From the NCBI GenBank assembly GCA_019915015.1, contig JAHBBC010000002.1, forward strand, positions 868,001-932,000: 64,000 nt of DNA, read 5' to 3'. Below are positions 3,299 to 24,138 of the stretch, one piece after another (the first letter of the stretch is position 1; each line of letters begins with the position of its first letter). This DNA is from Auriscalpium vulgare. Taxonomy: Eukaryota > Basidiomycota > Agaricomycetes > Russulales > Auriscalpiaceae. The position numbers and the translations under genes were made by a program. Under the pieces are notes generated by a model. It had not been told where the DNA came from. It made no database searches and saw nothing but the letters and a program-made list of their open reading frames with translations.

Positions 3299-4278
3299 TT
3301 ATTCCATCTCGAACAGCAGGACCTCCGCGACACCATCTCCGACGTTCGCCACCTCCAACACCGCTCCCGATGCGTTGTCCACATACACACCGTCGCCCTC
3401 CCGGAGCACGACATCTTCCGCACCCGCGCTGCTGACCTTCACAGTCGCGCCACCCGCCTTATCGGGGTTGTATCCAGACGTCTGTACGACGTGGACGTAC
3501 GCCTTGCGCGACGCGCCCGCCGCCTCGACGGTGTGCTGCAAGGAGTGCTCGGGCGACAGCAGCGTCGCGTACAAGGAGAGCGGCGCATGCACCGGCGCGG
3601 GGCCAGTGGCCTCGCGCGCGTCCTTGGCAGACGGAGCCGAGATGGGAGCGACGATGTGCGCCCACTGGTCCTTCTTCTGCTCGTCCGAGAAGTGGCTAAC
3701 AAGTAGATGTCAATGAAACCGATATGAGACAGATGGGCAGGAAGACATACCGAGTGTAGTAGGCTGGCTTGAGATTGGATTGCGATGGGAGAGCCCAGAT
3801 CTGCAGGAAATGCACCTGCTTGTTTCCGTGCGCGTGCTCGCTGTGGCGAATGCCGGTGCCCGCAGAAGTCATCTGCAGGTCGCCGCGCTTGAGCACTTCG
3901 GTGTTGCCCATGGAGTCGTTACTGAAACAAAGTGATACGTCGTAAGCATCTTCCGTAGCGAAAGGATGGTGTGTCTACGTACTGTTGGAGCTCGCCGGAC
4001 ACCACGTACGAGAAGATCTCGAATTCGCGGTGGGCGTGCGTACCGAAGCCTGTTTTTGGGGCGACGCGGTCTTCATTGATGACACGCAAACAGCCAAACG
4101 CATTGTGTGCGCGACTCGCGTAGCTGCGAACAGACCTGTGAGCCCGATATTGCGTGATGGTCTTCTCTGAGACGTACCTGGCGAAGGAGAACGTGTGGAA
4201 CGTCTTGAGCCAACCATGGTCGGCATTGCCGCGCTCGTCGCTCGGACGGGGGCGGAACTGGACAGTATGTTTGGCCAT
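3299..4278 (-). CDS. Pirin family protein (bicupin), paralog 1
   Basis: The four exons are 4278-4178, 4123-3983, 3921-3751 and 3695-3299. The start [17 protein letters not shown] is the first ATG and precedes the typical pirin opening [12 protein letters not shown]. The N-terminal cupin carries the metal-site motif [12 protein letters not shown], followed after the next intron by [15 protein letters not shown], the second His/Glu pair of pirins. The C-terminal cupin ends in [17 protein letters not shown]. Pirins bind a single iron; some act as quercetin 2,3-dioxygenases and others as redox-sensing cofactors, and the substrate cannot be read from sequence. A TATA element lies about 135 bp upstream. 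A second pirin of the same architecture is at 50765-51754. Family assignment is confident; the biochemical role is open. Confidence 0.9.
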
Positions 4279-6068: not shown

Positions 6069-7675
6069 CTATTTCAAGTTCGCGAAGCCGACACGCTTCA
6101 TTTCGACATCAAATGCAGTGTACACGTTCCGCATGAACACGTCGCCGATGATCCAGAACGCTGTCCCCGCGCGGTAAGTCTAGGGTTAGTCGAGAGAGCA
6201 AGCTCAAACTCACGCAATGGTGGCACAGACGTGAGGTAGCCAAGGCCCCCGATACAGCTGGTGTTCTTTTTGTCGACGGGGCCCAAGTTGAACGTGTCCG
6301 GGCTGATTGAGAACGCTGTTTGGTTGAACGAGAGGTCGATCGTAGAGCTGGAGTTGCACGGGACTGTGCACCCGAACGGGTGGTCAGTAATCTTCGACGG
6401 CGGGCGACCGAGTGACCAAGGCTTACTCGTATACATGCCCACGGCCTCGCTCGAGGGTAGAGCGCCTGGGATTTGAAGGTAGAAAGCGGTGACGTCCTCT
6501 GCGGGGCCAATGATCAACGTCGTACCGGTGTCGATGATGCAGTCGGCGTTCTGGAATAGAGGTAGGGATCCGTTGACGGCGATGCTATCGAAATTTGTCT
6601 GCCAGTAGCCCTGTTGCAAGTCAGTCAACCTCGTCAGTCATACGCACACGATCTGCTCACCTCTTCGGTTACGTCCACATACGTGAAGTCTCCCGTATAC
6701 AGAGCTGGATTAGTCCCTCCGAGAAACAGTTCGCTGCCGCTCTCGGCGAGCTTGAATCCGAACACCTGGTCAGTGACTTGACCATCTTCTATCAGCGTCT
6801 GGAAGAATGGGGGCGACTTGAATTGCGAAATTTCTTGAAAGCCCATGCCCATGAGTCCGTCCGCCGGAAATTGCGCAGAGTTGAAGCCTGTTGAATACGT
6901 ATTGGCGGCACCGAGAGCTTGCGCCTTTGCCTGAAAGTCGGCAGTAAGAACCAGGACATGTCCCACACGTGAGTTACTCACAGTCAGACCAGCGCAGGTT
7001 ACTACGTCCGTGTATTGCTCGCCCTCCACCGAGGAGCCGTCGCCATAAGTCAGTTTGAACGTCGCGTCGCGGTCTTGAGAGGTATGGCTTGCACTGGGGT
7101 CGTACATTGTGTGATTGTCACAATTTTCCGTGCAATCTACGCCGGGGAGGAATATGTCGCTGCTGCCGGTGTCGAAGTCCACTGTGAAGAGTCAGCGCAT
7201 CGTCCGGCTGCAGCACGCGCGCTCACCTTTATACTCCGTGGCCGGCGTGCCGACACTGATCTTGCCGTACCACAGCTCGTTATCATCGTCGTCCAAACCA
7301 TCTGGTGAGGATTTCCGCCTTGACAGCCCGAGCGGGAGGCTCGAATGGCCCGCAGGCTGCGACGGATGGCGCTGCCCTGTGTTCTCGTAGTAGGCATCGA
7401 AGCCCCGGAGGATCTTGCTGCACGAACCGTTCAGCGGCAGGTCGGGGCGCAGAGCTCTGCTACTCAGCGACTCACTCGTAGGATGCGTACATGCCTCTCT
7501 GCAGTGCGACGGGGTCCACGGTCCCACTGCGGTACGAGCGCGAGTGTTTTGCGATGGGCACGGCAATGCCGCGGGCGGAGGGGGCGGGCGAGCGTGATGC
7601 TGGCGGAACTGTGAGGGCGGAGGCGGTAGTGAGGAAAGGAATGGCGGCATAGAGAAAGGCAAGTGTGAAGTGCAT
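6069..7675 (-). CDS. Secreted A1 aspartic protease, copy 1 (intact)
   Basis: This is a pepsin-type endopeptidase. A signal peptide (MHFTLAFLYAAIPFLTTASA) and a propeptide precede the mature N-terminus near ELWYGKISVGTPATEYK. The first catalytic motif is DFDTGSSDIFLPG with the flap sequence LTYGDGSSVEGEQY, and the second is DCIIDTGTTLIIGP. The chain ends FWIIGDVFMRNVYTAFDVEM...GFANLK, the standard C-terminal strand of the family. At least seven short introns are read; the first joins YASYD to KILRGFDAYY with a GTGAGT donor. No frameshift or internal stop was seen and both active-site Asp residues are present. It resembles polyporopepsin-type enzymes of wood-decay fungi. It is the most diverged of the three copies in the window and lies 1.2 kb from the divergent peptide precursor gene. 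Confidence 0.92.
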
Positions 7676-7791: not shown

Positions 7792-8780
7792 CTGGTTCAT
7801 GCATGCCTTTGGTGCGATGGCTCCGTCAACGTCGACCGCATTGAGCGAGCCATCGAGCCATCGAACCAAGCGACCCACCGTTGTGGCGCGCGAGTCGCCG
7901 TCGGCAGGCAGCGCCCGCAGCGGCCTTGGCGGAGAGCAGGCTGCCACTGGCCGCATAGGCTCAACGGTGAAGTTGAGCCCACGTCTTTGCACGGCTGATT
8001 CTGGGACTCACCAGTTGGACGCCATGCGTTGAGTCGCGTTAGAGTCGCGTCCCGTTTGCTCTCGACGACGGCCATGAGAGGCTACGTTCGGATCAAATAG
8101 CTGGAAGATAAGAGTCAGTCTCCGCAACCGACCTCGCGCAGAAGACCGTAGTCTTTTGGCCACTTGAAGATGCCCACTGTCCTCGTGTTCCGCTTGTTCG
8201 CGAGAAAGGTTCATGTCCTGAACTTTCGATGTAAGTAGACTGGGAGACGTGGACAGCACACACTATTTGATCTCAATTTGCAGGCGGTGGGGATGTGGTT
8301 TGCGCGGTGTTACGAAATCTCGAGTTGATCCTCCGGTTGATGACGCGCGTGCCAAGGCGCGCGGACAGGCGGCGGTAAGAACACGCTATCATCTGGGGAC
8401 TCGAAGTGGACTCGATCGCATCCACTCCCGGGCCGAAGCCACGTTGCTCTCGCCTCCTCTCTGAGGCTCTCGCCCACTTTGAAACAAGGTTTCGAAGCTT
8501 TACGGGGGTATGAGGCCAGAGGAGAGGCGAAAGCCGCGTGAGCGCTGGAGCTCCCTCGTGGCACATATCCTATCCCTTGATTGATCTTTGTTTTGCCGTC
8601 GGCGTCCCATGTGCGGCGTACATGGACATCGTACCAAGACCTTGGCTTTCCACGGGGCTTTGATCCGAACCAAGGACACCGTCGCCCGGTGCGATGGGCT
8701 AGCGCCCTAGTTCCAGTCTACCACATGGTCAGTTCCCGTACTATCCACTCAGGAAGATAGGAAAGCGACCTATTTTTTTG

Positions 8781-8788
8781 TATAAAAG
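8781..8788 (+). promoter_or_regulatory. TATA box of the repeat peptide precursor gene
   Basis: TATAAAAG lies 65-72 bp upstream of the ATG at 8853 and just after a T-run. This supports a plus-strand promoter reading into the repeat gene. Confidence 0.55.
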
Positions 8789-8852
8789 ACATGCAATGTG
8801 GGATGAGGCCATCCGTCCCATCAGACGCCTCTCAATCCACCTGTAATTGAAG

Positions 8853-9909
8853 ATGAAGTTCATCTCTGCCATTCTTCTTCTCGCACCGCTCGCGGTTGCT
8901 GTTCTCGCCGCGCCTGCGGTAGACGTCCGCGAGCCGTGCACCGACTCGTCTGGCTCTACGTGTACGTTGTGTCTACCCTCGCACACAGCGTCAAGCCATC
9001 TTACTCATCCACGCCCTCGTGCAGGCAACCCCGGCGGAGTCAAGAACTGGAAACGCGTGCCCGCACCCGCGCCCGAACCGTGCACCGACTCGTCTGGCTC
9101 TACGTGTACGTTGTGTCTACCCTCGCACACAGCGTCAAGCCATCTTACTCATCCACGCCCTCGTGCAGGCAACCCCGGCGGAGTCAAGAACTGGAAACGC
9201 GTGCCCGCACCCGCGCCCGAACCGTGCACCGACTCGTCTGGCTCTACGTGTACGTTGTGTCTACCCTCGCACACAGCGTCAAGCCATCGTACTCATCTAC
9301 GCCCTCGTGCAGGCAACCCCGGCGGAGTCAAGAACTGGAAACGCGTGCCCGCACCCGCGCCTGAACCGTGCACCGACTCGTCTGGCTCTACGTGTACGTT
9401 GTGTCTACCCTCGCACACAGCGTCAAGCCATCGTACTCATCTACGCCCTCGTGCAGGCAACCCCGGCGGAGTCAAGAACTGGAAACGCGTGCCCGCACCC
9501 GCGCCCGAACCGTGCACCGACTCGTCTGGCTCTACGTGTACGTTGTGTCTACCCTCGCACACAGCGTCAAGCCATCGTACTCATCTACGCCCTCGTGCAG
9601 GCAACCCCGGCGGAGTCAAGAACTGGAAACGCGTGCCCGCACCCGCGCCCGAACCGTGCACCGACTCGTCTGGCTCTACGTGTACGTTGTGTCTACCCTC
9701 GCACACAGCGTCAAGCCATCGTACTCATCTACGCCCTCGTGCAGGCAACCCCGGCGGAGTCAAGAACTGGAAACGCGTGCCCGCACCCGCGCCCGAACCG
9801 TGCACCGACTCGTCCGGCTCCACATGTAAGGCCTCATCGTCTGCTGCTGGGCCAGCGAGCACTGATATGCATATTCACAGGTAATCCAGGGGGTGTCAAG
9901 AACTGGTAG
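8853..9909 (+). CDS. Secreted Kex2-processed repeat peptide precursor (KEP type), eight exons
   Basis: Exon 1 is 8853-8961, six internal exons of exactly 81 nt start at 9025, 9169, 9313, 9457, 9601 and 9745, and the last exon is 9881-9909. Introns 1-6 are 63 nt (GTACGT donor, GTGCAG acceptor); intron 7 is 55 nt. The spliced product is about 207 residues: a signal peptide (MKFISAILLLAPLAVAVLA) and seven copies of a peptide with CTDSSGSTC followed by NPGGVKNW. The first six copies end in KR, a Kex2 site, and the last ends at the stop codon directly after W. Between KR and the next Cys lies VPAPAPEP, four X-Pro dipeptides of the kind removed by Ste13-like dipeptidyl peptidases. Known relatives in design, not sequence, are yeast alpha-factor and the fungal UstA and GigA precursors. 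All introns are phase 1, so intron retention or exon skipping keeps frame. Splicing is inferred. I see no maturation enzyme beside it. Confidence 0.75.
8932..9825 (+). repeat. Tandem 144-bp exon+intron repeat, about 6.2 units
   Basis: Each unit is 81 nt of exon plus 63 nt of intron. Exon copies differ only at silent sites (for example the codon of APEP near 9362, and SSGST in the last unit). Introns 1-2 differ from introns 3-6 at two positions, so units 3-6 form a homogenised block. Because 144 is divisible by three, unspliced reading frames also stay open across the array, which produces misleading long open frames. Confidence 0.95.
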
Positions 9910-10174
9910 ATGCTCCATCTCCTAATTTCCTCAGTTTGTCCCTCCATACGTCGGTAGGATTCATTCGGTTCTTACTTGGGTCATCAGAGAATAGTTGATT
10001 GTCGAGGAGGAGGCTAGGTCAGGTGGTATAGTAATTACGATGATGTTCTCGCGAGATCTGATAGGATGTTGCAAGTGACCGACTTCATTCTGAGGGCAAG
10101 AATAAGGACAGTATGTCAGTATGAGAGGTGTAAAGTCTGCGCGCAATATATGTGAAGGAGAGACAGCATCGCGT

Positions 10175-10657
10175 TCACGCGAGATTTGCGAAGCCAATCC
10201 GCGATTTCCCGACGTCGAAAGAAGTGTACACGTTCTGCAGAAACACATCCCCGATAATCCAGAAGTTAACTTGAACGCGCAATTAGCTGATTGACGACGC
10301 TTAGAGAACACTTGGTACACTTACGCTCCGGATCCGCGATGTAGCCTAAACCACCCACGCACATGGAAGAGCCCTCCTCGATCTGGCCCATATTGAAGGT
10401 CTCGGGGCTGATCGTGAAGGCTTTCCCGCCGAAGGTCATTGTGATAGGCTTTTTGAAGCTGCAGGGGTCTATCCAGGGGTCAGCCACGCAACCGTGAACA
10501 CAGAAATATGCTACGCACAGATGTAGATGCCCTCTTGCGGTCCTGGCAATGCACCTGGGATGCGTGTATAGACTAGCGCCACTTCCGCAAGGGGGCCAAC
10601 GATGAGAGTGGTGCCGGTGTCGATGATGCAGTCCCGGTTCCTTTCCAAAACAATCGG
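10175..10657 (-). pseudogene. Aspartic protease copy 2, 3' part cut off by the retrotransposon
   Basis: This fragment continues the gene whose 5' part is at 19530-20643. It contains the second catalytic motif DCIIDTGTTLIVGP, then ITMTFGGKAFTISPETFN, CVGGLGYIADPE and the final exon FWIIGDVFLQNVYTSFDV...GFANLA with stop at 10175. Reading frame and splice sites look undamaged, so the only visible lesion is the 8.9-kb insertion. Without removal of the element, no full protease can be made from this locus. Confidence 0.9.
10654..10657. repeat. Target site duplication, left copy (TCGG)
   Basis: TCGG immediately precedes the left LTR and recurs at 19530-19533 after the right LTR. Removing the element and one copy restores alignment with protease copy 3 (caaTTGGgtgccc there, caaTCGGgtgccc here). 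Confidence 0.85.
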
Positions 10658-11814
10658 TGATGACCTATCTCGGCGCACAGGCGGTCAGATGGCAAAACAA
10701 ACCACAAAACCAACTCCTGCTGGCTCGAGCGGTGCTAGTAACAGGTTGGGGGCGCGTCCCAGGACCTACAGATGACTCGGGGAGAGGCGGGAACGCTGGG
10801 GGGAAGTCGCTAGGTGACTTGGAGGGCGATAGGACGATGGACAAGGTGATCTGGGATGGAAGTCGACACTGCTGGTGCGGAACAGGACGTTGCGATGTGT
10901 AGCGAGTTTGAGAATACCTTGCTGGAGGGCTGAGACGATGGGGGAACAAAGGCGAGGATGAGGGGACAAGGGGACAAGGTGATACGAAGGTCGCGACGTA
11001 ACGCGATAACGCTGGACGAGGTGAAAACAATGTGCTCTGCGAAGTTGAAGGCTTGTAAACGTGGGCTCTGCGAAGGTGAAGGCTATAATCTTGGGCGCTG
11101 CGAAGTTGAAGGTCGAGGTCGATGTTGAACGCGATAAAACGATGTTGCAAAGGTTTGAGACGTTGACTCTGGAGGGGAGAAGTTGTCTGATATTCAGTGA
11201 CCTAGCTACCAACAGATATACACGGGAAACATGTCTCTGTGGCTACTGTGAGTCATCTGGTAAGTATGGGGATAGTGAGACATTCTAGAAGGCGTATCCA
11301 ATCAGAAACAAGCATCGCGACGTATCGGAACAGCAAGGCTGTGCTATCTCCATGTGAAACTCCGAGATATGCGGATCGCGACGTATCGGAAACCATCAAA
11401 CCGGAACATTGCTCTGAGACACTGCATCTAGACCGGACCCTGGGAACTGTGGGTGACGTGTCGAGGGGCTGCGCAACGCTAGGACGCTCTGGGAACGAGG
11501 TGGGAGGCGAGGGCAACATGTGGATGTACGCGCGAGACATTGCGACGTGCGCACAGAATGCTAATGGCTGGCTCAGAACGTCTTGGTGACTTGGTGGGCG
11601 TGTACACATGACTTGGGGACTTGTGCAATCATCCTGCGTGGCCTGGATGGTAGAGATTTGATGGAGACGTCAAGGAGTATAGGCCCGTGTTGCTACAAGT
11701 GTGCTAGCGTCTTGGCTGGAACTGCGAGCGCGATGTGTTGCGATAGTCGATGTTGAGGCGATAGAACGTGCCAAAAATGCGAAAACAGAAGCCACCCGCG
11801 CTGGGGGCGTATCA
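10658..11814 (-). repeat. LTR (3' LTR in element orientation), 1157 bp
   Basis: It is identical to 18373-19529 except at 11657 and 11659. Read on the minus strand it starts TGATACGCCC and ends GGTCATCA. All small open frames inside it recur unchanged in the other LTR and are not genes. Confidence 0.95.
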
Positions 11815-11824
11815 CCTCCTCCTT
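11815..11824 (-). other. Polypurine tract of the retrotransposon
   Basis: AAGGAGGAGG on the minus strand abuts the 3' LTR, where plus-strand DNA synthesis is primed in LTR elements. A related purine tract lies inside pol at 13511-13530. Confidence 0.7.
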
Positions 11825-12063
11825 ACTGTAGATCTGACCGTCCTCGGTCAGCGCGTGCGTTGAATACGGGTCGGCAAAGGAGTGCTGGGGGCTGCGGTGG
11901 GTGGGAACGAAAGGATACAGAAATGGAAGAGTGAAGCATATAGCGAACTTGAATGTCCCTTCTTGGTCTCTGTAAATGGCATGGGCAAAAAGGGAAACAA
12001 AACTTAAACAAACACAAGGGAAACCATGCGTAGCATGCTGGAAAGAGAAACAAAACAAAGGAG

Positions 12064-15000
12064 TCAGGAGCCATCTGGGGGACCATCCATGTCGTCTTCA
12101 TCGGCTATTGGCATGTCTTCTAAGCTGTCATCGTCTCCTAAGGACTGGGAAGCTTCTAGTTCGCGAAGTCGAGTAGTGTCAATATCAATGGCATCTAAGT
12201 CCACTTCAATTCGCTTTCGCGCAAAGAAGGGGATGACTCTGAAGGCGGCAATGGGTCGATCAAAGACGGAACCATCTAGTTCTGCAACAAGGTAGGCGCC
12301 TCCGCGGTTTCGCGATACAACAACAAGGGGGCCTAGATAGCGAGGGCGCATCTTGCGGTTTAGCGACTTCTCGATAGCGGTGTGGCGGATCAATACAAGG
12401 TCTCCACGCTTGAAATCAAAGTCGCGAATGGTCGCTGCGTGGTCACGCTCAAAGCGCTCTGCTGCTGCTAGACGATGTGCAAAAACCTTGGAACGCAGGT
12501 GTGAAATGTGCTCGTGTCGCTTCTGGAGGGCTATGGCGCGTCGTGCAATGAGGTCTGTGGTCGAAAGAATGGACGTGGGCGGCGGCAAGAGGTACGTTGC
12601 TTCGGATATGTCAAGGGGAATGAGCGGATGACAACCTGTGACTGCAAAGTAGGGCGAGCAACCCATGCGGCGTCTTGTAGTAAGGCGCTCGGACCAAAAG
12701 ACTGTGTGCGCAGACATAGACCAGCGACTCTGTTCTCCATCGCAGGCCTTGAACAATGCTTGACGAACGTCAAAGTGTGCACGCTCAACGATGCCGTTGG
12801 CTCGCGAATTGTAACCACTGATGCGAATATGGCGAATGTTGTACTTCTTGGACAGATAGTCAAGTGCCTTGACAAATGGGCCTCCGTTGTCTGTGACGAT
12901 TTCGCTTAATGAACCCCAACGACAAAGGATATCTTCAAAGACCCAATCTGCAATGGCCTTGGCTGTCTCACGGCGTAGGAGTCGAAACTCGGGGTACTGG
13001 GTGAGTGAACAGCGTCCTTGAACAATATAGCGAAAGCCGTTAGAGACTGGCATATGCATTGTGTCAACGTAGATCTTCGCGAAGAGCGCAGCGGGTGTCG
13101 CAACAACCGGGGGGATGAGAACTTGACGCTTCTGACGCTGCTGACAGATGAGACAGCTGCGGACATACCACATGGCATCCGCTTCGGAAGCTGGCCACCA
13201 AAAACGTTCTTGAATAAGCGATCTTGTAGCAAAAACTCCGCGATGTCCAACACGATCATGACATTCTGCAAGAACTTGAAGTCGTTGAGCTGGTTGTATC
13301 ACAAGCTTGTGTGCGCCATCAAGACTGCGTCGCCAAAGTCTTGTCTTGTCGATAAAGAAGCGCGTCGCATAGCGGACAAAGGTCGCGAACTCAGAATCTG
13401 ACAAGTCTTCTGGGCGTTCTGGTTTCCTTAACCAATTGTGGACTGCTTGAATGCGAAGGTCGTGGGTTCTAGCTGAGTCGGAACGTGGCACATCGTCATA
13501 ACAGAGCTTGGGCTCCTCCTCCTCCTTACTGAAGTCTTGACCGTCCTCGGTCAGGGCATAGGTCGCGAAGCAGGGAGGGTGGGTGGGCACAGCTAGGATG
13601 TGGGAACGAAACGCAGAAGGCGAAGGGTAGACAATGTGAAGGAATCCATGCATGTTATCAAGCCAATCGTCATAACTGTCATCTTGTTCTGTCTCTGCTG
13701 GGGTATCTTCACCTTCTTGTCTATGTCGCGAAAGTCCGTCTGGTCCATGGCGAACTCCTGGAACGTGGCGAAGCTTGAAATGGAAGATGAGGATGCCTAG
13801 AATCCATCGATTGATACTTGCACTAGGGACGAGATCCGGGTTCTTGAGCATTCCTTTGATAGCGCTAGCGTCAACTTCAACAACTAGGTTGCGAACACCA
13901 AGTAGATAGATGCGGAGTGTGCGTAGTGCACGGAAAAGGCCGTAAATCTCAAGCTTAGGCTGGGAGAAGCGTCGTTCGCGGTCGTTGAGCGTGATAGAAC
14001 CAAAGCGATTGATATAGCGGAGCGTCTTCTTGGGGGTCGCGACGTCTTGCGCTAAGATATAGCCTATTGCAATGTACGAGGAGTCAACAGCTAAGACAAC
14101 TGGGTCGGGTGATTCATAGTTGATGGCACAGAGCGCTGGCGAGGCGAGCAAGGCTACTTTAAGGTCTTCTTGAGCGGCAATATGTTCTGGTCCAAACTCG
14201 AATGGGACACCTTTGCGGGTAAGCTGTGTCAAGACGTGGGCACGTTTCGCGAACGAGTCGATGAAAATGCGGCAGACTCCAATGGTACCAAGGAATGCAC
14301 GAACGTCAGAGACATCTTTGCAGGGGCCCCAGTTGCGGATAACTGAGACAGTGGACTCGTCAGGACGTCGACCTTCTGGGGTGCAACGATGGCCAAGAAC
14401 GGTGAACTCGCGACTGATAATGATAGACTTGGTGCCAGAGAATGTGCCACCACAATACTTCATGCGCTGCAAGATACGGTTGACATTCTGGAAGTGCTCC
14501 CAGACAAAACGGCGGATGTTGCGATTGTTCGCGATGTGCTCGGGCTTGCCATATTCGTCAAGATACTCGGATGCGGGACCTTTGAGTGGGACATCGTCGA
14601 TGTAGGGGACTGTAATCGCTGGTATCTCAGGCTGGAGGATGTACGTGACGTCGTCATGGAAGATAGGAACTGAGTTCGTCCATCCCATGGGTAGGGTGAC
14701 AAGGCGCTTGGCTCCAAAGGGCGTCTGGAACGTAGTGAGATCTCGCGAGTGTTCGTCAATGAGGCGTTCGTCATAGCCAACGTAGAGATCGAGTATTCCA
14801 CCGCATGCGCGGCCTCCGAACTGTTCTGCAAGGTGCTCTGGCGTGGGTGTGACTCCGGAATGTGCGATAGTGACGGCGTTGAGGGGCTCAAGACTGTGAA
14901 CAATGCGTAGCGACTTGCCATCTTTCTTCGCGACGCAGAACCAACGCGAACGATACGATGAATTCGAGTCTTCATATGTGCCTGCATGAATCTTGCGACG

Positions 15001-15882
15001 AATGAGATCTGTGACTTCTTTGTAAAGACCTGGTGGGATCGGAATATTGCGCTGTACCCAAGGTGTATGCGGAACAACAGGGATTTGGACTGGAGGAAAG
15101 AACTCGCGCTTGAAACTGCCTCGCTCTGAGTCATTCCAAGCGAAAGCGTCGTTGTGAACTGAAATGACGTGGTGCAATAGGTCTCGTTCGGCTGGCTGAA
15201 GGAAATTGTAGCACTCTTGGCTATCAACAGTGTCTTTGCGTTCTTGCGTGTAGCGTCCGGTGGGTACAAAGGGCGGGGGATGCGTAGGGAGCATAGGGAG
15301 CGATGCAAGGGGATCTCCCTGTATGTTGCGAACTATGCGGAACTGTTCTGGGACTGAGCCTAGCACAGGCTTGACTTTCTGGGCAACGGGCTTGTACTTG
15401 CGCTTCGCAAACGTTTTGCGAACTGGGGGTATCTGATTCTCTGGCAAAGGCAATGGACGAAGGTCTGAGGCAAAGGTAGAAAAGAGTGTGGATTGCGTTG
15501 AGGCGGGATTTGGAGCGAACGTTGAAGTCAAAACTGTAAAAGCTGCTGGAGCGGCGTGGTTGGGAAGCAAAGAACGAGCGTCGGAGGCAGTTAAATAAGC
15601 AAACTGGAGCGAGGATTCGTCTGAAGGGTCAAGAGGGGTATAAGCAAGTGCGCGAACACTCGCGCCGTCGCCTTCCAAGATGAGGGCGACTTCTTCACCA
15701 TCTTCTAGATAATCAAGCAGCGAAAGTTGTCTCCTGTGAGACTCGAAACCGATGATGCCCTCTAGGGAACGTAGGCACTGTGACAACAGCTGTCGAGTTG
15801 GGATTGCGAAGCGTAACAGTCTGGTCTTCGTTCTTGAAGTTGCGCACAACACTCTCTGTGATAACGTCGAAGGGGCGTCCAA
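12064..15882 (-). CDS. pol: Pol polyprotein of the Ty3/gypsy element (RT, RNase H, integrase)
   Basis: The open frame has about 1270 codons without a stop. The reverse transcriptase includes FCVAKKDGKSLRIVHSL, TTFQTPFGAKRLVTLPMGW and the catalytic PYIDD. RNase H follows (VVLAVDSSYIAIGYILAQ, KLEIYGLFRALR). The integrase has an HHCC zinc domain (CHDRVGHRG ... CLICQQ) and a DDE core (IYVDTMHMP, IVTDNGGPF, NGIVERAHF), then a C-terminal region with RYLGPLVVVSRNRGGAYLV and an acidic tail. The frame has no ATG at its beginning and overlaps the end of gag in the +1 frame, so it is probably expressed by frameshifting. All catalytic motifs appear present, and the element may still be mobile. Confidence 0.93.
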   Translation of the reverse strand: MDAPSTLSQRVLCATSRTKTRLLRFAIPTRQLLSQCLRSLEGIIGFESHRRQLSLLDYLEDGEEVALILEGDGASVRALAYTPLDPSDESSLQFAYLTASDARSLLPNHAAPAAFTVLTSTFAPNPASTQSTLFSTFASDLRPLPLPENQIPPVRKTFAKRKYKPVAQKVKPVLGSVPEQFRIVRNIQGDPLASLPMLPTHPPPFVPTGRYTQERKDTVDSQECYNFLQPAERDLLHHVISVHNDAFAWNDSERGSFKREFFPPVQIPVVPHTPWVQRNIPIPPGLYKEVTDLIRRKIHAGTYEDSNSSYRSRWFCVAKKDGKSLRIVHSLEPLNAVTIAHSGVTPTPEHLAEQFGGRACGGILDLYVGYDERLIDEHSRDLTTFQTPFGAKRLVTLPMGWTNSVPIFHDDVTYILQPEIPAITVPYIDDVPLKGPASEYLDEYGKPEHIANNRNIRRFVWEHFQNVNRILQRMKYCGGTFSGTKSIIISREFTVLGHRCTPEGRRPDESTVSVIRNWGPCKDVSDVRAFLGTIGVCRIFIDSFAKRAHVLTQLTRKGVPFEFGPEHIAAQEDLKVALLASPALCAINYESPDPVVLAVDSSYIAIGYILAQDVATPKKTLRYINRFGSITLNDRERRFSQPKLEIYGLFRALRTLRIYLLGVRNLVVEVDASAIKGMLKNPDLVPSASINRWILGILIFHFKLRHVPGVRHGPDGLSRHRQEGEDTPAETEQDDSYDDWLDNMHGFLHIVYPSPSAFRSHILAVPTHPPCFATYALTEDGQDFSKEEEEPKLCYDDVPRSDSARTHDLRIQAVHNWLRKPERPEDLSDSEFATFVRYATRFFIDKTRLWRRSLDGAHKLVIQPAQRLQVLAECHDRVGHRGVFATRSLIQERFWWPASEADAMWYVRSCLICQQRQKRQVLIPPVVATPAALFAKIYVDTMHMPVSNGFRYIVQGRCSLTQYPEFRLLRRETAKAIADWVFEDILCRWGSLSEIVTDNGGPFVKALDYLSKKYNIRHIRISGYNSRANGIVERAHFDVRQALFKACDGEQSRWSMSAHTVFWSERLTTRRRMGCSPYFAVTGCHPLIPLDISEATYLLPPPTSILSTTDLIARRAIALQKRHEHISHLRSKVFAHRLAAAERFERDHAATIRDFDFKRGDLVLIRHTAIEKSLNRKMRPRYLGPLVVVSRNRGGAYLVAELDGSVFDRPIAAFRVIPFFARKRIEVDLDAIDIDTTRLRELEASQSLGDDDSLEDMPIADEDDMDGPPDGS
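13511..13625 (-). repeat. Internal copy of the PPT-proximal segment inside pol
   Basis: The minus strand reads AGTAAGGAGGAGGAGGAGCC at 13511-13530, with the adjoining CTGACCGAGGACGGTCAAG block. This resembles the segment at 11815-11930 next to the 3' LTR. Here it is coding (ALTEDGQDFSKEEEEP) and sits between RNase H and integrase. It is therefore a duplicated cassette and a candidate second, central polypurine tract. Confidence 0.6.
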
Positions 15883-18232
15883 GTAGAATGTCGTACGCGA
15901 CGTTGCGAATGACGTGGATCTGCAAGTAGATGGTAATATTCGCGATCTTGACGGGGACGTTGCGAGCTAATCCAAGCGAGCTGTCATAGTGTGTGTTGGC
16001 ACTCTGAACACGAATGCGGATCGAAGGGTCGTATGCAAGGCCAAGATGGTGACAAATCTCTTCTGACATCGAGATAATCTGTGACCCGGGATCCAAAAGG
16101 CATTCAACTGTGTCTTTGTTGTCAATGATAGCGTCGATGGAGCGGAGCGCATGTGATTCGCGGGCGACAGTCAAGACTTTAGGCTCTTCTTCAGGGGCTA
16201 AGTCCATCAGGTACGTCTCATATGGATCATCAATGACTAGGACGCCGGGCGGAGGGTTATTGCGATCTGGCGCGATAACACGAGGGGCAGGGACATAGTT
16301 TGCAAACGTCTTGGCTTCAGCTTCGGCAATTGCCGCGGCGGGCGAGACTATGTCTTCTGGGACCTCTTCGACAGTGGGGAAACTGGAAATGACTTGCTCA
16401 TTGACTGCACGACGAGGTGTGACAACATCGCGATACTTCGCGCGGACCTCTGGCGAGAGTGAAAGGAGTTCCTCAGGTGTGAGCGTGATCGAGTTCGCTT
16501 TCATCGAGCGAGCAAACACTGTGTCTGCTATCTCTGTCTTGTGAACTGGAGCATTTGTCTTGTAAGCGGTGTCTCGCGCATTCAAAGGCCTGGGCGGGTC
16601 TGCAGGGACAAAGCGTGTCTGCTTGACTGGGGCGGAAGTAGCGTCACGAGCTTTGGCAAAGGGGTGCGAAGGTGTGCGAGGTGCTGATGACTGTGCTGGA
16701 CTAGGAGCGGGAGCTTGCGCTGGAGCTGGAGCTTGAACTGGTGGGGCATCTTGAGTCGGCTTCACGTTCGCGGTTCGACGAGGGGGCACTTCTACGCCGT
16801 CGAAGACCAACTTGAACGAATCGCGAGCCTGTGGGCCTTTCAGTGCTGCTAGCTCAGCTTCAAGTGCGGCGATGCGATCTGTCGCGGAAAGCGTGAACGT
16901 CGAGAGCGGCTCAACTGCGAGCATCATCTGGGCTTGTGCGCGCTGGCCTGGGTTGCGTCGATGCCACTCCATCATGCGATCACGAAGGGTGTTGCCTGTA
17001 ATAAAGCGGGGAACAAATCCTCCACCAGGCAGTATGACTCTTCCTTCATGGTTTCGCTTGACGTAGCCAGTGCGGATGTCTTCTTCGACTGCAGGACAGT
17101 TCGCGATGTGATGATCTGGAGCGCCATCATATAGGCAACGATTCTCTGAGCGAATGGTGTCAACTGGAGCAGGTGTGGGCGTGGACAAGGCTGCTGGGAC
17201 TGCGCTATTGCCTTGAATTGCTTGGGTGAGCGAACGAACGAGGGTGACAAGGAGTTCTTCTGTCTTGATCGCTGGGGCTGGCATTAACGATGAGCTGGGT
17301 GCTAAAGCGGCGTCGTTGCGAAAGGAAGAGGCTGCTGTGCCATGTAGAACATAGTTCGTTGCGTCCTTGACGTCAGAAACAAGATAGGGGTCTTCTGGCT
17401 CCTGGTCTGGCAATTTGATCTGAAGGCGAGCATGGACACGCTGCCAAAGCTCAGCTGGGATGCCTCGAACGAATTCTCGTTGTTGCTGGAGGTCTGAGAG
17501 GCGCTTGTGCTTGATAAGATAGCTGGAGAGCGTCAAGAAGTCGCGATGGAATGTTGCGAACTCTTCCAGTGTCGAGATTCCGTTGGCGCGACGTTCCGCG
17601 ACGAGGTGCTCAAGGTCTGCAACTGAATATGCTTTGTCTTCGCTAGCACCTGGGTAGAGCTTCGCGACAGCTTCCTTGAACTCTTTGTATGACTTGGAGG
17701 CGTCGGTGAACTCTGTCATGGCGTCGAAAAGATCGGCTACTTCGATAGGGACATAACTCTGTGCCCAAGTCTTCTTCTCTTCATCCTTGGTGATTGAGCA
17801 ACGAAGGAATAGGATTTCAAGGTCTGCAAAGAACCTGCGGATTGAACGAGGCTGTTCTGGGGTAAATATAGGGGCGGTGCGATCACCACGAGCTGGCATA
17901 AGCGTAGTCATCGCGATAAAAGGTTGGGGATTGGTGATAGGGACTTGAACGGTGTGTGTGCGACGGTTCGCGATATAAACGGCGGGCGATGGAAGACGAC
18001 TGGTGATGGCTGGAGGTGTGGAAATAGGCTGGGGCGATGGCGAAGGCGGAGTGCGCGATGTGACGGGATGTAACAAGGGGCGAGGCGACGATGGGAAGCT
18101 TCCTGGAAACGGTGGAGAGTCTTCTAATGGATCTAGGAGGTTGATATCACTGAGAAGGTCGGAAGGAAGGTTGTTGTGTGTCGCAAATGGACTAGGGACT
18201 GAGGAAAAGAGTTCTCCTGGACTGGGGGCCAA
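15713..18232 (-). CDS. gag: Gag polyprotein with C-terminal retropepsin
   Basis: The capsid-like part contains RRFFADLEILFLRCSITKDE, YKEFKEAVAKLYPGASEDK and QQREFVRGIPAELWQRV. A zinc-knuckle-like remnant follows (CLYDGAPDHHIANC), lacking the second Cys of CCHC. A Pro/Ala-rich linker leads to a retropepsin-like region with VECLLDPGSQIISMSEEIC, where DPGS takes the place of the usual D-T/S-G. So the protease belongs to this frame, not to pol. The open frame begins before any ATG: the first in-frame ATG is at 17911 (MTTLMPARGDRTAPIF). Initiation could be there, or further upstream if the transcript is spliced. Pol overlaps the last 170 nt in the +1 frame. Confidence 0.88.
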   Translation of the reverse strand: MAPSPGELFSSVPSPFATHNNLPSDLLSDINLLDPLEDSPPFPGSFPSSPRPLLHPVTSRTPPSPSPQPISTPPAITSRLPSPAVYIANRRTHTVQVPITNPQPFIAMTTLMPARGDRTAPIFTPEQPRSIRRFFADLEILFLRCSITKDEEKKTWAQSYVPIEVADLFDAMTEFTDASKSYKEFKEAVAKLYPGASEDKAYSVADLEHLVAERRANGISTLEEFATFHRDFLTLSSYLIKHKRLSDLQQQREFVRGIPAELWQRVHARLQIKLPDQEPEDPYLVSDVKDATNYVLHGTAASSFRNDAALAPSSSLMPAPAIKTEELLVTLVRSLTQAIQGNSAVPAALSTPTPAPVDTIRSENRCLYDGAPDHHIANCPAVEEDIRTGYVKRNHEGRVILPGGGFVPRFITGNTLRDRMMEWHRRNPGQRAQAQMMLAVEPLSTFTLSATDRIAALEAELAALKGPQARDSFKLVFDGVEVPPRRTANVKPTQDAPPVQAPAPAQAPAPSPAQSSAPRTPSHPFAKARDATSAPVKQTRFVPADPPRPLNARDTAYKTNAPVHKTEIADTVFARSMKANSITLTPEELLSLSPEVRAKYRDVVTPRRAVNEQVISSFPTVEEVPEDIVSPAAAIAEAEAKTFANYVPAPRVIAPDRNNPPPGVLVIDDPYETYLMDLAPEEEPKVLTVARESHALRSIDAIIDNKDTVECLLDPGSQIISMSEEICHHLGLAYDPSIRIRVQSANTHYDSSLGLARNVPVKIANITIYLQIHVIRNVAYDILLGRPFDVITESVVRNFKNEDQTVTLRNPNSTAVVTVPTFPRGHHRFRVSQETTFAA

Positions 18233-18351
18233 ACGACAAACGATTCGCGAAGTTCTGCGGCTAGGGAGGAGACTCGAGTAGGATAGCGATGTCGATGTGT
18301 AGGGGGTGTGGAAGATGAACGAGAGTGATCTGAAGCAATCCTGGTAGTGCC

Positions 18352-18368
18352 CCTCGCGGTGGGCTCCA
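18352..18368 (-). other. Candidate primer-binding site of the retrotransposon
   Basis: TGGAGCCCACCGCGAGG starts four bases inside the 5' LTR boundary on the minus strand. It begins with TGG, as expected for pairing to a tRNA CCA end. The tRNA was not identified. Confidence 0.5.
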
Positions 18369-18372
18369 CAAA

Positions 18373-19529
18373 TGATGACCTATCTCGGCGCACAGGCGGT
18401 CAGATGGCAAAACAAACCACAAAACCAACTCCTGCTGGCTCGAGCGGTGCTAGTAACAGGTTGGGGGCGCGTCCCAGGACCTACAGATGACTCGGGGAGA
18501 GGCGGGAACGCTGGGGGGAAGTCGCTAGGTGACTTGGAGGGCGATAGGACGATGGACAAGGTGATCTGGGATGGAAGTCGACACTGCTGGTGCGGAACAG
18601 GACGTTGCGATGTGTAGCGAGTTTGAGAATACCTTGCTGGAGGGCTGAGACGATGGGGGAACAAAGGCGAGGATGAGGGGACAAGGGGACAAGGTGATAC
18701 GAAGGTCGCGACGTAACGCGATAACGCTGGACGAGGTGAAAACAATGTGCTCTGCGAAGTTGAAGGCTTGTAAACGTGGGCTCTGCGAAGGTGAAGGCTA
18801 TAATCTTGGGCGCTGCGAAGTTGAAGGTCGAGGTCGATGTTGAACGCGATAAAACGATGTTGCAAAGGTTTGAGACGTTGACTCTGGAGGGGAGAAGTTG
18901 TCTGATATTCAGTGACCTAGCTACCAACAGATATACACGGGAAACATGTCTCTGTGGCTACTGTGAGTCATCTGGTAAGTATGGGGATAGTGAGACATTC
19001 TAGAAGGCGTATCCAATCAGAAACAAGCATCGCGACGTATCGGAACAGCAAGGCTGTGCTATCTCCATGTGAAACTCCGAGATATGCGGATCGCGACGTA
19101 TCGGAAACCATCAAACCGGAACATTGCTCTGAGACACTGCATCTAGACCGGACCCTGGGAACTGTGGGTGACGTGTCGAGGGGCTGCGCAACGCTAGGAC
19201 GCTCTGGGAACGAGGTGGGAGGCGAGGGCAACATGTGGATGTACGCGCGAGACATTGCGACGTGCGCACAGAATGCTAATGGCTGGCTCAGAACGTCTTG
19301 GTGACTTGGTGGGCGTGTACACATGACTTGGGGACTTGTGCAATCATCCTGCGTGGCCTGGATGGTAGAGAATCGATGGAGACGTCAAGGAGTATAGGCC
19401 CGTGTTGCTACAAGTGTGCTAGCGTCTTGGCTGGAACTGCGAGCGCGATGTGTTGCGATAGTCGATGTTGAGGCGATAGAACGTGCCAAAAATGCGAAAA
19501 CAGAAGCCACCCGCGCTGGGGGCGTATCA
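18373..19529 (-). repeat. LTR (5' LTR in element orientation), 1157 bp
   Basis: It matches 10658-11814 with two mismatches (19372 and 19374). It should hold the element promoter; no TATA box was assigned. Confidence 0.95.
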
Positions 19530-19533
19530 TCGG
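19530..19533. repeat. Target site duplication, right copy (TCGG)
   Basis: It directly follows the terminal CA of the right LTR and equals 10654-10657. Confidence 0.85.
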
Positions 19534-20643
19534 GTGCCCATTTACAGAGATGTTGTCAAAGGCTGTCTCCCAATAGCCCTAGATATATATTCTCAGCTTC
19601 AGCTACAGGGTAACTCCATTCTTAATACGACGCACCTCTTTCGTTACTGGCACATATGTGAAGCTGCCACTGTACGAGGCTGAATTGACTCCACCGAGGA
19701 ACAGCTCTGCGCCGTTCGGCGCAAGCTTGAAACTGAACACAGAATCGTCCACCTGGCCCTGCTCTATCAGCGTCTGAAAAAAAGGCGGTGCGTTGTAATC
19801 CGAGATGGACTGGAAGGCCATGCCCATGAGCCCGTCAGGCGGGAAGTTATTGCTAGAAAAACCGTCAGAGTAGGTAGTAGCAGCTCCTAGAGCCTGCCCA
19901 GTTGCCTAGAAATGATGGTAAGAGACGTCTGAGCAATACCAGTACGACCCACAGTAAGTCCGGCGACCGTAACATCGTCAGAATATTGCTCTCCAGACAC
20001 GGTCGACCCGTCGCCATACGCCAGCGAGAACGCTGTGTCACGGTCGTGCGACGTTGAACTCGCAGTGGGATCGTACGAAGTATGCCCTTGACAGTTCGAT
20101 GTGCAATGAGCACCAGGGAGGAACAGATCGCTGCTCCCGGTGTCAAAGTCCACTGCGGATGAAAGAAGCCCGGTTCAGCAACAGACGGGACACGATGTTG
20201 ACACAAAGGGCGCACCTGTGAACAGCTTCTTCGGTGTTCCAACGGAGATCGCACCGTACCACAGTTGCTGGCCGGCCGCAGTGAGGGGGTCTGAGCCAGT
20301 GGCACGCGTTTGGAGGGTGGCAGAGCCATTCACGAGAGGGTGGGGCGTGCCCGTATTTCTTTCGTATGCGGAAAAGCCGCGATGCACTTTCCTAAATACA
20401 CGGGGAAGTGGGAAATGTTGCCCGACGCTGAGAGCGAGGGTAGAGCACTTACGCGACAGACCGCGCGATGCTGCGTGCCAGCGATGCAGGGTCAACGGGT
20501 GCGCCGGCTCCGCGCTTAGCGATGGGGATTGAGATGCCAGACGCCGGTGCAGGCAAAGGAGTGCGGCAGTGGTGTGCTGGCAATGCTGCGGCAAGGACGG
20601 GGAGGGCGGCGAGCATGGAGCTCGAGGCAGCAGTAAAGCGCAT
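19530..20643 (-). pseudogene. Aspartic protease copy 2, 5' part, interrupted by the retrotransposon
   Basis: It starts with signal peptide MRFTAASSSMLAALPVLAAA and propeptide (HHCRTPLPAPASGISIPIAK). After two introns come ELWYGAIS-type sequence (QLWYGAISVGTPKKLF), the first catalytic motif DFDTGSSDLFLPGAHC, flap LAYGDGSTVSGEQY and GLMGMAFQSISDYNAPPFFQ. The frame is cut in the exon reading GYWETAFDNISVNGHP, exactly where the element sits; the rest of that exon is at 10657 and below. A TATA box is kept at 20745-20752, so transcripts ending in or reading into the element may still be made. It is very close in sequence to copy 3, so the two are recent tandem duplicates. Confidence 0.92.
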
Positions 20644-21501
20644 GGTGCAGAAAAGACAGACTGGAAGGGTCCGAGAAAATGAGTGAACGGCGTAAAACTG
20701 GGTAGGACAGGGTCAGCCTAAGGAGGTCACGCATCGATGGAGGGTTTTATATGCCAGGCTCGGGTCATGAGACGAAGGCGAGCTGTCGCATCCATGTGCA
20801 CCAGGATACTAACTGTGCAAGCGATGTCCAGAGGTGCTGAGAAACGACGCTAGAACAGAATGGAACGCCGAAAACTGAAATGAATGACTTCATCAGACAT
20901 AGAGACTAAGGCATTGCCGAGGGATTAAGTATCGTACGTGACGGGGATGAGCATGGCGCGCAGAGACGTGACGAAGCAACCCGTGGCAGGTTGCTGGGAA
21001 GGTGGGGCACGGCTAATGTGTATGCTGTAGTAGCCCTAGAGAAAGCCGGACTTATAGCCCACTCTCAGGCTGTCAATTTGGCCCTGAGCATATAATGAAG
21101 CACGAGTCGCAGCAGCAGAAAGGAGTGTGGGAGTGAGGCTGTAGACTTTATGATCAACAGCATATGTCGTGCTGGAGAATCAATATGATGAAGCTTGAAG
21201 CTTGAAGACTCAAGAGGAGGATGAAGCCGAGCGCTAAGAGCTTGAAGGCGCCTAATTTAAACCCGAACTTTACATAACGAGGAGCGCCTCGGCACAGAAT
21301 GCCGAACGGAACGACTCAGCCGCGGAGACTAATAACGTCCTCCGACTCGTCAGTTGTGTGTAACGAACATATTTTGCAACAGTTCCACCACGTTCATGGA
21401 CGAAAAGCTATGATTATTACGGTGACGTCATATGGCGCGAACAGGACTCGACTTTGACAAAAAAGAAATGTCGAAGCGGCACCGTCGTAGCACCGTCGCG
21501 T
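20644..21501. other. Intergenic between protease copies 2 and 3, 0.86 kb
   Basis: It holds the copy 2 promoter. No coding frame with a recognisable product and no RNA gene was seen. Confidence 0.5.
20745..20752 (-). promoter_or_regulatory. TATA box of aspartic protease copy 2
   Basis: The minus strand reads ATATAAAA about 105 bp upstream of the ATG at 20643. The matching segment is missing upstream of copy 3. Confidence 0.5.
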
Positions 21502-23089
21502 CTAAGCAAGGTCTGCGAAGCCAATCTGCGAATTTCCAACGTCAAATGCAGTGTACACGTTCTGCAGAAATACATCTCCGATAATCCAGAAGTAAGCTTG
21601 AACGCACAATCAGCCGATACACGACGCTTAGGAAACACCTGGCACACTTACGCTCCAGACCCGCGAAGGAGCCTAAACCACCCACGCACATGGAAGAGCC
21701 TTCCTCAATCTGGCCCTGGTTGAAGGTTTCGGGGCTGATCGTAAAAGGTTTACCACCGAAGGTCATTGTGATAGGCTTTTTGAAGCTGCAGGGGTCTATC
21801 CAGGGGTCAGCGAGACGCATCCGCGAACACATAAATCTGCTACGCACACATGTAGCTGCCCTCTTGCGGCGGCGGCAATGGCGATGCATCTGGGATCTGC
21901 GCATAGACTAGCGCCACTTCCGCACGGTGGCCAACGATGAGGGTGGTACCGGTGTCGATGATGCAATCCCGGCGACTTTCAAAGACAATTGGGTGCCCGT
22001 TTACAGAGATGTTGTCAAAGCGTGTCTGCCAATAGCCCTGAAAGCTACTCTTAGCTTCCGTTGCAGGGCAGCTCCATTATGAACATGCACGCACCTCACT
22101 CGTTACTGGCACATATGTGAAGCTGCCACGGTACAAGGCTGAATTTACTCCCCCAAGGAACAACTCTGAGCCGCTGGGCGCAAGCTTAATACTGAAGACA
22201 GAATCGTCCACCTCGCCCTGCTCCGTCAGCGTCTGAAAAAATGGCGTTGCGTTGTAATGCGAGATGGACGGGAAGCCCATGCCCATGAGCCCGTCAGGCG
22301 GGAACTGATCGTTGGCAAAGCCATCGGCGTATGTAGTGGCAGCTCCTAGAACCTGCCCAGTTGCCTAGAAATAATGATGAGAAGAGACATCTTAGAAATA
22401 CCAGTACAACTCACAGAAAGCCCGGCGACTGTGACATCGTCAGAGTATTTCTCCCCGGACACGGTGGACCCGTCGCCATATGCTAGCGAGAACGTTGCGT
22501 GACGGTCGCGCGATGTTAAGCTCGCACTTGCGTTATATAAATTATGCCCTTGACAGTTCAATGTGCACTGCACACCAGGGAGGAATAGATCACTGCTCCC
22601 GGTGTCAAATTCCACTGCGGGTGTTCAGCAACAGGGACACGAAGCTGACACAAAGGGCGCACCTGCGAACAGCTTCTTCGGCGTTCCAACGGATATCGCA
22701 CCGTACCACAGTTGCTGCTCGGCACTGGTAAGGTTGTCGTAGCCCGCGGCACGCGTTTGGATGCCCGCGGAGCGATTCGCGAGAGGATGGGGCGTGCCCG
22801 TATTTCTTTTGTATGCGGAAAAGCCGCGATGCACTTTCCTACATGCATGAGGAAGTGAGAAATCCTGCCCGACGCTAAGAGCGAGGTAGAACACTTACGC
22901 GACAGACCGCGCGATGCTGCGTGCCAGTGATGCGGGGTCGACGGGCGCACCAGACCCGCGCTTAGCAATGGGGATTGAAATGCCAGACGCCGGTGCAGGC
23001 AAAGGAGTGCGGCAGTGGTGAGCGGGAAATGCTGCGGCAAAGACGGGGAGGGCGGCGAGTATGGAGCTCGAGGCAGCAATGAAGCGCAT
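21502..23089 (-). CDS. Secreted A1 aspartic protease, copy 3 (coding region intact)
   Basis: The signal peptide is MRFIAASSSILAALPVFAAA, followed by the same propeptide motif as copy 2. The mature part has QLWYGAISVGTPKKLF, first active site EFDTGSSDLFLPGVQC, flap LAYGDGSTVSGEKY, GLMGMGFPSISHYNATPFFQ, second active site DCIIDTGTTLIVGH and the terminal FWIIGDVFLQNVYTAFDVGN...GFADLA with stop at 21502. Several 50-60 nt introns lie at the same places as in copy 2. Both Asp residues are present and no frameshift was seen. Compared with copy 2, the region upstream of the ATG lacks about 85 bp that includes the TATA box, so expression may differ. Expected role: extracellular acid proteolysis. Confidence 0.92.
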
Positions 23090-24138
23090 GGTGCAGAAAG
23101 AACAGACAAGAAAGGTCTGAGTGAACGGCTTAAAACTGGGTAGGACAGGGTCATCCAAAGGACTTAGGAGGTTACGCATACCGGTCACTGCGCTAGGGGG
23201 GAGGCTAGAACAGAATGGAACGTTCTGAACGGAAATAATTACCGCCTTTTAGAGGAACTGAGGCATTGCCGAGGCCTCCGAGATTGAGTATCCCGGACAG
23301 GATAGGATACAGGGATGAGCGAGGATAGGGAGGGATGCGGAGGCTGAAGTTTGTGAGGGACACATAGCCCGCCTCCTACTCTAGCCGCAGCAAATGGAAC
23401 ACCAGTCGCAGCAGCCTGATTCTTGTAAGCAATAGGACGCAGTGCATGCTTCAAGTAGAGCTGGACTCGATGGCACATGCCATGTCGTGCTGGACTCGCG
23501 ACGCGAAGCAGTGTGCAAAAGAACGGGCCGCGCCGGCCCCGATCCGGAAAGACACCGCCCGCTCCCGCCGAACCAGCCGCTGAGGTAGTGCGAGCGCCGA
23601 GCTCACACACCCGCACTGCAGCATACCTATGTCTTCCGATACCGTATAAGGTCAGACTACCCATCATTATTGGGACGTTGGCACGCGAGGCCGCTCCGCC
23701 ATTACCGCCGTTGTACTTAAAGACTGGTCGGAAAGTAGGCTCGAACGAGCGCAGAACGTAATGTAGAGTCTGGAATTCTGGAATTTAATTTGGTGATTAC
23801 AGGGTCTTAGTCTCAGTCTGTGATGAAGCCCAAAGTTACTTCGCCTGGGGGCAGAGATACTGAGGCGAGGAAAAAAGATGTGACGTCGAACGAATCGGTG
23901 GCCAGAGACTGGGTAATCTACCTATGTATAATAAAAACGTGCGCAGCGACTGCTGGAGCATGGGGTGACCTCCCCCTCAAAGGCTTCACCGAATGCAAAG
24001 TGCAGAGAAGGTAGCTGCCGGCAGCATGAACACTAGATGTACAACAACATACGTGGATCCAGAGGCAAACGCACAATAATGATAGATGAAACTGTCCGCG
24101 CAGTACATAAACAGCGCCATAGGTGCTGGGTATCGATA
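23090..24138. other. Intergenic, 1.05 kb
   Basis: It holds the promoter of protease copy 3 and the 3' flank of the Sec72-like gene. A few open frames lack recognisable products. I see no repeat or RNA gene. Confidence 0.5.

Follow-up and report, generated by a model that had tools for sequence, protein, structure and literature searches.

A Putative Kex2-Processed Repeat Protein of Auriscalpium vulgare Encoded by an Array of Exon–Intron Cassettes

Introduction

Kex2-processed repeat proteins (KEPs) of basidiomycetes are presented, in the sections of the two main papers used here (Le Marquer 2019, PMC6339444; Vogt 2022, PMC9769878), as secreted precursors with a repeated core, in which Kex2 sites are followed by X-Pro or X-Ala dipeptides; the gene described below is of the same make-up. 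According to a part of PMC9769878, expression of KEPs in Pichia gave products apparently resulting from cuts at single Arg residues and from removal of the STE13 motif, and some of the peptides detected in Agaricomycetes likely originate from STE13 processing. The functions of KEPs with the Ste13 signature in basidiomycetes are described as open in passages of both papers. A leader, Kex2 sites, Ste13 dipeptides and several identical cores are also features of ascomycete alpha-factor precursors, as outlined in PMC6339444, where Basidiomycota are stated to use a-type pheromones only. The KEP layout is likewise found in precursors of the dikaritin/ustiloxin type, as far as the excerpted text of PMC7329392 goes.

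Genes in which the repeated parts of a precursor lie on separate exons have been described in insects. In the honeybee apidaecin gene, as presented in part of PMC3415428, each of several exons encodes one peptide of a multipeptide precursor, so that this layout is not unique among all organisms; ant hymenoptaecin, compared with apidaecin in the same text, has an EAEP spacer and RR sites. In nasonin-6 of Nasonia, each repeated domain has its own exon, with phase 1 introns, which is explained by exon duplication in the relevant part of PMC2853521. Apidaecin, an animal precursor of unrelated sequence, differs from the A. vulgare gene in that its exons encode distinct peptides, whereas in the latter an intron splits each core (PMC3415428); nasonin-6 differs in having defensin-like domains without protease processing signals (PMC2853521). 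Within the text portions considered, these two genes are the nearest layout matches found. Caerulein-type frog genes are a further animal case of this layout.

In the present work, a window of 64,000 nucleotides (contig JAHBBC010000002.1, hereafter C2, positions 868001–932000) was analysed, and the genome to which it belongs, of 51.6 Mb in 96 contigs, was searched. What is known at this locus is the type of precursor, a KEP with the Ste13 signature, as reported in Basidiomycota; what appears to be new for fungi, going by the open-licence literature searched, is the core and the exon–intron cassette layout.

Structure of the Gene and of the Repeat Array

An eight-exon gene is located at positions 8853–9909 of the forward strand (Table 1) and comprises exons of 109, 6 × 81 and 29 nt and introns of 6 × 63 and 1 × 55 nt. 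Six near-identical 144-bp units, each represented by a 63-nt intron and an 81-nt exon, are followed by a diverged 55-nt intron. A single array was detected here by TRF (positions 8930–9828; period 144, 6.2 copies, 98% matches, score 1735). The spliced open reading frame encodes 207 aa in the order leader, APAVDVR-EP, core 1 and 6 × (KR-VPAPAPEP-core), with seven identical cores CTDSSGSTCNPGGVKNW and KR after six of them. The core consists of 17 residues, including two Cys (positions 1 and 9), and an intron lies inside every core. All junctions are of phase 1 and split the codon of the second Cys between its first and second bases; each internal exon is therefore symmetric. Introns 1–6 are represented by two variants, A (2 copies) and B (4 copies). 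The differences among the repeated coding parts of the gene are silent, and the cassette units differ from one another by no more than 5 of 144 nt.

The original prediction, made from the letters of this DNA, had given the same coordinates, the same 144-bp unit size and the same product, in agreement with TRF and the gene model. Its seven identical Cys-containing peptides, six of them with KR, were recovered in the model, and the two intron variants that it reported were found among introns 1–6 in the copy numbers given above. The claim that all coding differences are silent also held, including 8 of 8 differences between the terminal and the cassette unit over 57 nt. Six introns of 63 nt had been predicted and are present, but there is also a seventh (9826–9880, 55 nt) at the same position and in the same phase.

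Table 1. Features of the peptide precursor gene in the window
Feature	Position	Strand	Basis or remark
TATA box (TATAAAA)	8781..8787	+	Also upstream of the paralogue
Exon 1, 109 nt: ATG, hydrophobic leader MKFISAILLLAPLAVAVLA, short pro-part APAVDVR-EP, first half of core 1	8853..8961	+	Hydropathy; 93/109 nt identical to the paralogue
Intron 1, 63 nt, variant A	8962..9024	+	Gene model
Exon 2, 81 nt, phase 1-1: CNPGGVKNW-KR-VPAPAPEP-CTDSSGST	9025..9105	+	Gene model
Intron 2, 63 nt, variant A	9106..9168	+	Gene model
Exon 3, 81 nt	9169..9249	+	Gene model
Intron 3, 63 nt, variant B	9250..9312	+	Gene model
Exon 4, 81 nt, single silent change CCC to CCT	9313..9393	+	Gene model
Intron 4, 63 nt, variant B	9394..9456	+	Gene model
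Exon 5, 81 nt	9457..9537	+	Gene model
Intron 5, 63 nt, variant B	9538..9600	+	Gene model
Exon 6, 81 nt	9601..9681	+	Gene model
Intron 6, 63 nt, variant B	9682..9744	+	Gene model
Exon 7, 81 nt, three silent terminal-unit changes at the 3' end	9745..9825	+	Gene model, unit comparison
Intron 7, 55 nt, diverged type, CTGAT branch-like site	9826..9880	+	51/55 identical to the last intron of the paralogue
Exon 8, 29 nt: second half of core 7 and stop, no KR	9881..9909	+	Gene model

Paralogue on the Same Contig

Protein and DNA searches of the genome revealed one other locus, C2:1146317–1145585 on the reverse strand, 268 kb away. In this paralogue the leader is near-identical and the splice positions are the same as in the window gene. 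Spliced at these sites, it gives a precursor of the same kind with other cores, namely three CTDKSGITCNPSGPKND and one CTDKSGLTCNPGGPKND, which differs from the three like cores at two residues, followed by a stop codon. The four cassette introns of the paralogue are 55, 55, 56 and 56 nt long, and each of them therefore shifts the frame. The unspliced reading of the paralogue contains stops; the spliced reading is stop-free up to the end of the fourth core.

The three linkers before the stop of the paralogue, VPAPEP, EPAPAPEP and EPAPAPEP, are composed of X-Pro dipeptides only: one whole dipeptide is lost or the first residue is swapped, and Pro is kept at every second place. This change of linker length by a whole dipeptide, with the X-Pro register kept, supports a dipeptide step in processing. 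In the linker after the stop one Pro is lost. Since the stop after the fourth core is premature and the last unit is decayed, with loss of Cys, the paralogue may be dying; alternatively, its present product may be four peptide copies.

The duplication that contains the paralogue extends over ~2.7 kb, with piecewise matches to window positions 7887–10612, and stops within an aspartyl protease gene. Between the two loci, the last introns are identical at 51 of 55 positions without a gap; directly ahead of the ATG, 60 nt (8793–8852) agree at 49 of 54 aligned positions, with 12 gap columns. Elsewhere the pair is less alike, with 82–86% identity and gaps in the cassette introns, 72% over 200 nt upstream and 78% in the 3' flank.

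Spliced and Unspliced Reading of the Array

Introns 1–6 correspond to 21 codons each and are open in the coding frame, and the unspliced array forms an open frame of 345 codons from stop to stop; the window alone is thus without proof of splicing. An unspliced repeat protein, with the 63-nt segments coding and with longer repeats, CTDSSGSTCTLCLPSHTASSHLTHPRPRAGNPGGVKNW, carrying extra Cys, would be in keeping with the lengths of 144 and 63 nt, both multiples of 3, and with the frame open through introns 1–6; with intron 7 spliced, all 64 of 64 combinations of kept and removed introns 1–6 stay in frame to the annotated stop. With intron 7 retained, however, core 7 disappears and none of the 64 combinations arrives at this stop in frame. 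The corresponding segments of the paralogue are 55–56 nt long and its unspliced frame has stops, while in the window gene the segment edges coincide with GT–AG sites and with the limit of exon conservation. Furthermore, the two intron variants alter residues in the unspliced frame (L/R and P/L), whereas the exon changes are silent, and by an arithmetic estimate a 63-mer is 3n and open by chance with a frequency of ~0.12, or roughly once in eight introns. Three comparisons, those of the terminal and cassette units, of the paralogue and of the intron variants, therefore favour splicing as far as DNA can, the paralogue appearing to be the strongest support short of RNA, and an unspliced protein is regarded as very unlikely. 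An artefact of copy number is no more credible: assemblers can collapse or expand near-identical units, but the intron variants form ordered blocks, the ends of the array are unique and an independent paralogue has the same layout, although the exact number of units could still be wrong.

No branch-like site of the form YTRAY was found in introns 1–6, which contain just CTCAT, with CTTAC in addition in variant A; this is a point against the spliced reading. In the DPPIV_N locus of the same genome, two GT–AG gaps of 52 and 55 nt are present, as judged by eye, so that such short introns are normal in this genome. The spliced reading, in which a secreted Kex2-type repeat precursor was amplified as an exon plus intron unit, is that of the original prediction, and the comparisons of units and paralogues argue for it. 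To that prediction are now added the X-Pro linker, the paralogue with its other cores and the constraint on the core.

Processing of the Precursor

With good confidence, the window gene is predicted to be spliced and to encode a KEP whose linker is of the Ste13 type, and those defining features of KEPs and of Ste13-signature KEPs that were tested appear to be present. The leader has a hydropathy of up to 2.98 over 12 residues and a VLA-A end, and is called a signal peptide by hydropathy alone; it is conserved in the paralogue and would fit the ER signal peptide of KEPs. Under the splice model, the repeats are represented by seven cores and six KR in the window gene and by four cores and three KR before the stop in the paralogue. 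After KR, the linker is VP-AP-AP-EP in six of six cases, i.e., four X-Pro dipeptides, as expected for cleavage by Kex2 followed by Ste13-type trimming.

Genes for candidate processing enzymes were found in the genome. A Kex2-type protease is represented by a single P_proprotein match over the cut-off (contig C4, E 1.7e-15), which is partial, covering positions 1–59 of 86 (59/86), with one TGA inside. The Ste13-type candidate is one DPPIV_N locus on C2 with 3 exon matches.

From these features the following route may be proposed. Splicing of the seven phase 1 introns would join half-cores at each junction, and the leader would direct the 207-aa precursor to the secretory pathway, where Kex2 would cleave on the C-terminal side of KR and perhaps also of the lone R26. 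VP-AP-AP-EP (EP for copy 1) could be stripped by a dipeptidyl aminopeptidase of the Ste13 type, which should halt at Cys-Thr, and a Kex1-type carboxypeptidase would trim KR, so that as many as seven identical CTDSSGSTCNPGGVKNW peptides would be released. For copy 1, release would depend on cleavage behind the lone Arg of VDVR-EP, and the end of copy 7 would be set by the stop codon. A ring between Cys1 and Cys9 may close in the peptide, which is a guess from the sequence.

Constraint and History of the Units

The terminal and cassette units differ at 8 positions in 57 coding nt, all of them silent; among 20,000 sets of 8 changes drawn at random, not one was entirely silent. In the core, 8 of 12 synonymous sites but 0 of 39 nonsynonymous sites are changed (Fisher p 8e-7). 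Core dS is 1.65 for the terminal–cassette split, against a leader dS of 0.19 and a core dS of 0.22 for the paralogue pair, all from small samples; by this measure the split is probably old and looks older than the pair. Because the terminal unit has old silent divergence without any residue change, the comparison shows a core apparently held identical by selection, not by recent duplication alone. The few differences among the cassette units indicate that the array in its present form arose recently or has been homogenised.

Both unit types of the window gene encode the same core, which differs from the commonest core of the paralogue at 5 of 17 residues. Between the paralogues, nonsynonymous change affects ~12 of 40 sites in the core versus 5 of 82 in the leader and linker (p 7e-4); the same contrast counted by residues, 5 of 17 versus 3 of 38, is weak (p 0.09), and core dN of 0.38 and dS of 0.22 come from few sites. 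A Val-to-Pro change is present in both the cassette and the terminal exons of the paralogue. Core residues thus move together across units although silent sites do not, which short conversion tracts or coordinated selection could explain.

Copy number may have grown by duplication or unequal exchange of the symmetric exon plus intron unit, perhaps starting from a two-exon gene for one peptide. As the intron moves with each peptide copy, a less constrained stretch would come to lie beside every copy. Intron 7, having the same position and phase, may be an old copy of a cassette intron, but the alignments gave no clear signal for this: shuffled sequences align as well in 411 of 1000 cases with intron 1 and in 84 of 1000 with intron 2 of the paralogue.

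Comparison with Known Families and Systems

Homologues of the spliced protein, of the two-sequence alignment and of the unspliced reading were searched for in a set of 5.8 billion proteins (7990, 7988 and 7995 candidates scored for the three queries); none was found at E <= 10, which is weak evidence of absence. No Pfam family over the cut-off and no MF_alpha match, as would mark an alpha-factor, were found for the window product; sub-threshold matches to DUF7617 and Cir_N were taken as chance, as were two PDB matches of the first 72 residues (E 1.1 and 1.2). There was no match in NCBIfam, a prokaryote library, or, for the window, in Rfam, and the letters of the core were not found in open-licence papers. 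The original prediction had named no known peptide family, and the protein set, Pfam, NCBIfam and PDB searches likewise yielded neither family nor homologue, again as weak evidence of absence.

No match to the Ste2 receptor family PF02116 was detected in the genome search, which had no working positive control. STE3 gave 40 exon-level matches by the same method, 39 of them over the cut-off. Such a receptor pattern would suit a basidiomycete. The STE3-type receptor matches on contigs C30 and C76 form two near-duplicate sets of equal scores, as if two mating-type haplotypes had been assembled separately.

That Kex2-processed repeat precursors are known in fungi, as the original prediction noted, is borne out by the KEPs described in the consulted parts of PMC6339444 and PMC9769878. 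A passage of PMC9769878 gives Trp as the last core residue in relatives of C. cinerea KEP 490115, which is a likeness to the window gene. The core found here, with its two Cys (1 and 9) and an intron in every copy, is unlike the basidiomycete KEP cores printed in the portions of PMC6339444 and PMC9769878 that were compared.

The claim that an array with an intron for each peptide copy is unusual holds for fungi in so far as no fungal peptide precursor of this kind appeared in the open-licence literature, among the matches listed; it does not extend to all organisms, given the bee apidaecin gene (PMC3415428, in part). None is described in the relevant parts of PMC8786786, PMC10569646 and PMC4508827, and neither intron nor exon is used as a word in the main texts of PMC6339444 and PMC7329392 (0 occurrences). 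According to a passage of PMC9769878, KEP sequences free of introns were obtained by amplification from cDNA, which implies introns in at least a number of the C. cinerea KEP genes; such genes count against the novelty of the layout. The survey of C. cinerea KEPs began, according to the same source, from the predicted proteome, and genes such as this one, in which six of the seven introns are open in frame, are easy to mispredict and represent a possible blind spot of KEP surveys.

Possible Functions of the Peptide

By analogy with the systems above, a role in signalling or interaction is probable for the product, as a predicted secreted peptide. The CTDSSGSTCNPGGVKNW peptide offers studies of basidiomycetes a concrete candidate to test. 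A role directed at other organisms, antimicrobial or otherwise, and not a signal of the fungus to itself, is possible but has less than even chances. The denser nonsynonymous change in the core than in the leader and linker would suit it, but the contrast by residue counts is weak and the rate estimates derive from few sites. Being close to neutral as well as short, the core does not resemble the common cationic antimicrobial peptides. Roles in the biotic environment are favoured by the authors of PMC9769878, in the part cited, on the grounds that no phenotype was seen when 6 C. cinerea KEP genes were knocked out. A peptide-hormone system is a more speculative suggestion. In such a system duplication and homogenisation, and perhaps also the control of dosage, would proceed by whole exon–intron cassettes, the cores of the intact gene would be kept identical while the core of the paralogue diverged sharply, and a disulfide-ringed peptide resembling alpha-factor would act through a receptor other than Ste2.

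Under full splicing, all 64 of 64 paths from a donor to a later acceptor preserve the frame, and their products carry between 1 and 7 identical cores, with 1, 6, 15, 20, 15, 6 and 1 paths for 7, 6, 5, 4, 3, 2 and 1 copies. The layout thus makes the gene tolerant of exon skipping, and if the cassettes are spliced independently, splicing could set the peptide dose. A dial of copy number, in which exon skipping alters the number of peptides alone, would draw on the fact that every donor–acceptor pair is of phase 1, so that all of these paths keep the frame; skipping in frame, however, follows automatically from the repeat and hence is no evidence of regulation, and this idea is doubtful, slightly more so than the hormone system. 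Least probable among the functional readings is a ribosomally synthesized (RiPP) precursor of the dikaritin kind, cyclised by UstYa. It would share the KEP layout, and the genome has at least 14 UstYa matches, but none of the matches listed lies on contig C2. A dikaritin core needs Tyr for cyclisation, and CTDSSGSTCNPGGVKNW is without Tyr.

Neighbourhood of the Gene

Around the peptide gene, three related aspartyl protease genes are located in a row, all on the reverse strand (6098–7191; 10169–10657 with 19530–20724; 21496–23162). The first of them (6098–7191) was identified by Pfam and the other two were linked to it by tblastn. The middle gene is split by an LTR element and is 84–85% identical to the third. 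This element, an LTR retrotransposon at 10658–19529, probably of the Gypsy type, contains RT_RNaseH, integrase zinc-binding and aspartyl protease domains; its two LTRs of 1157 bp are 99.8% identical, with TCGG on either side. Its position within the aspartyl protease gene points to a recent insertion beside the peptide gene.

The nearby aspartyl protease was considered as a conserved partner of the peptide gene and rejected, the 20 kb around the paralogue having just protease C-terminal matches, next to the paralogue itself. The C-terminal aspartyl protease piece beside the paralogue (C2:1144868–1145269) is probably a remnant of segmental duplication; since only C-terminal matches occur there, the protease was probably carried along with the duplicated segment, and its presence is not taken as a sign of joint function. 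Elsewhere in the window, positions 3748–4098 and 51217–51564, 47 kb apart, are 69% identical.
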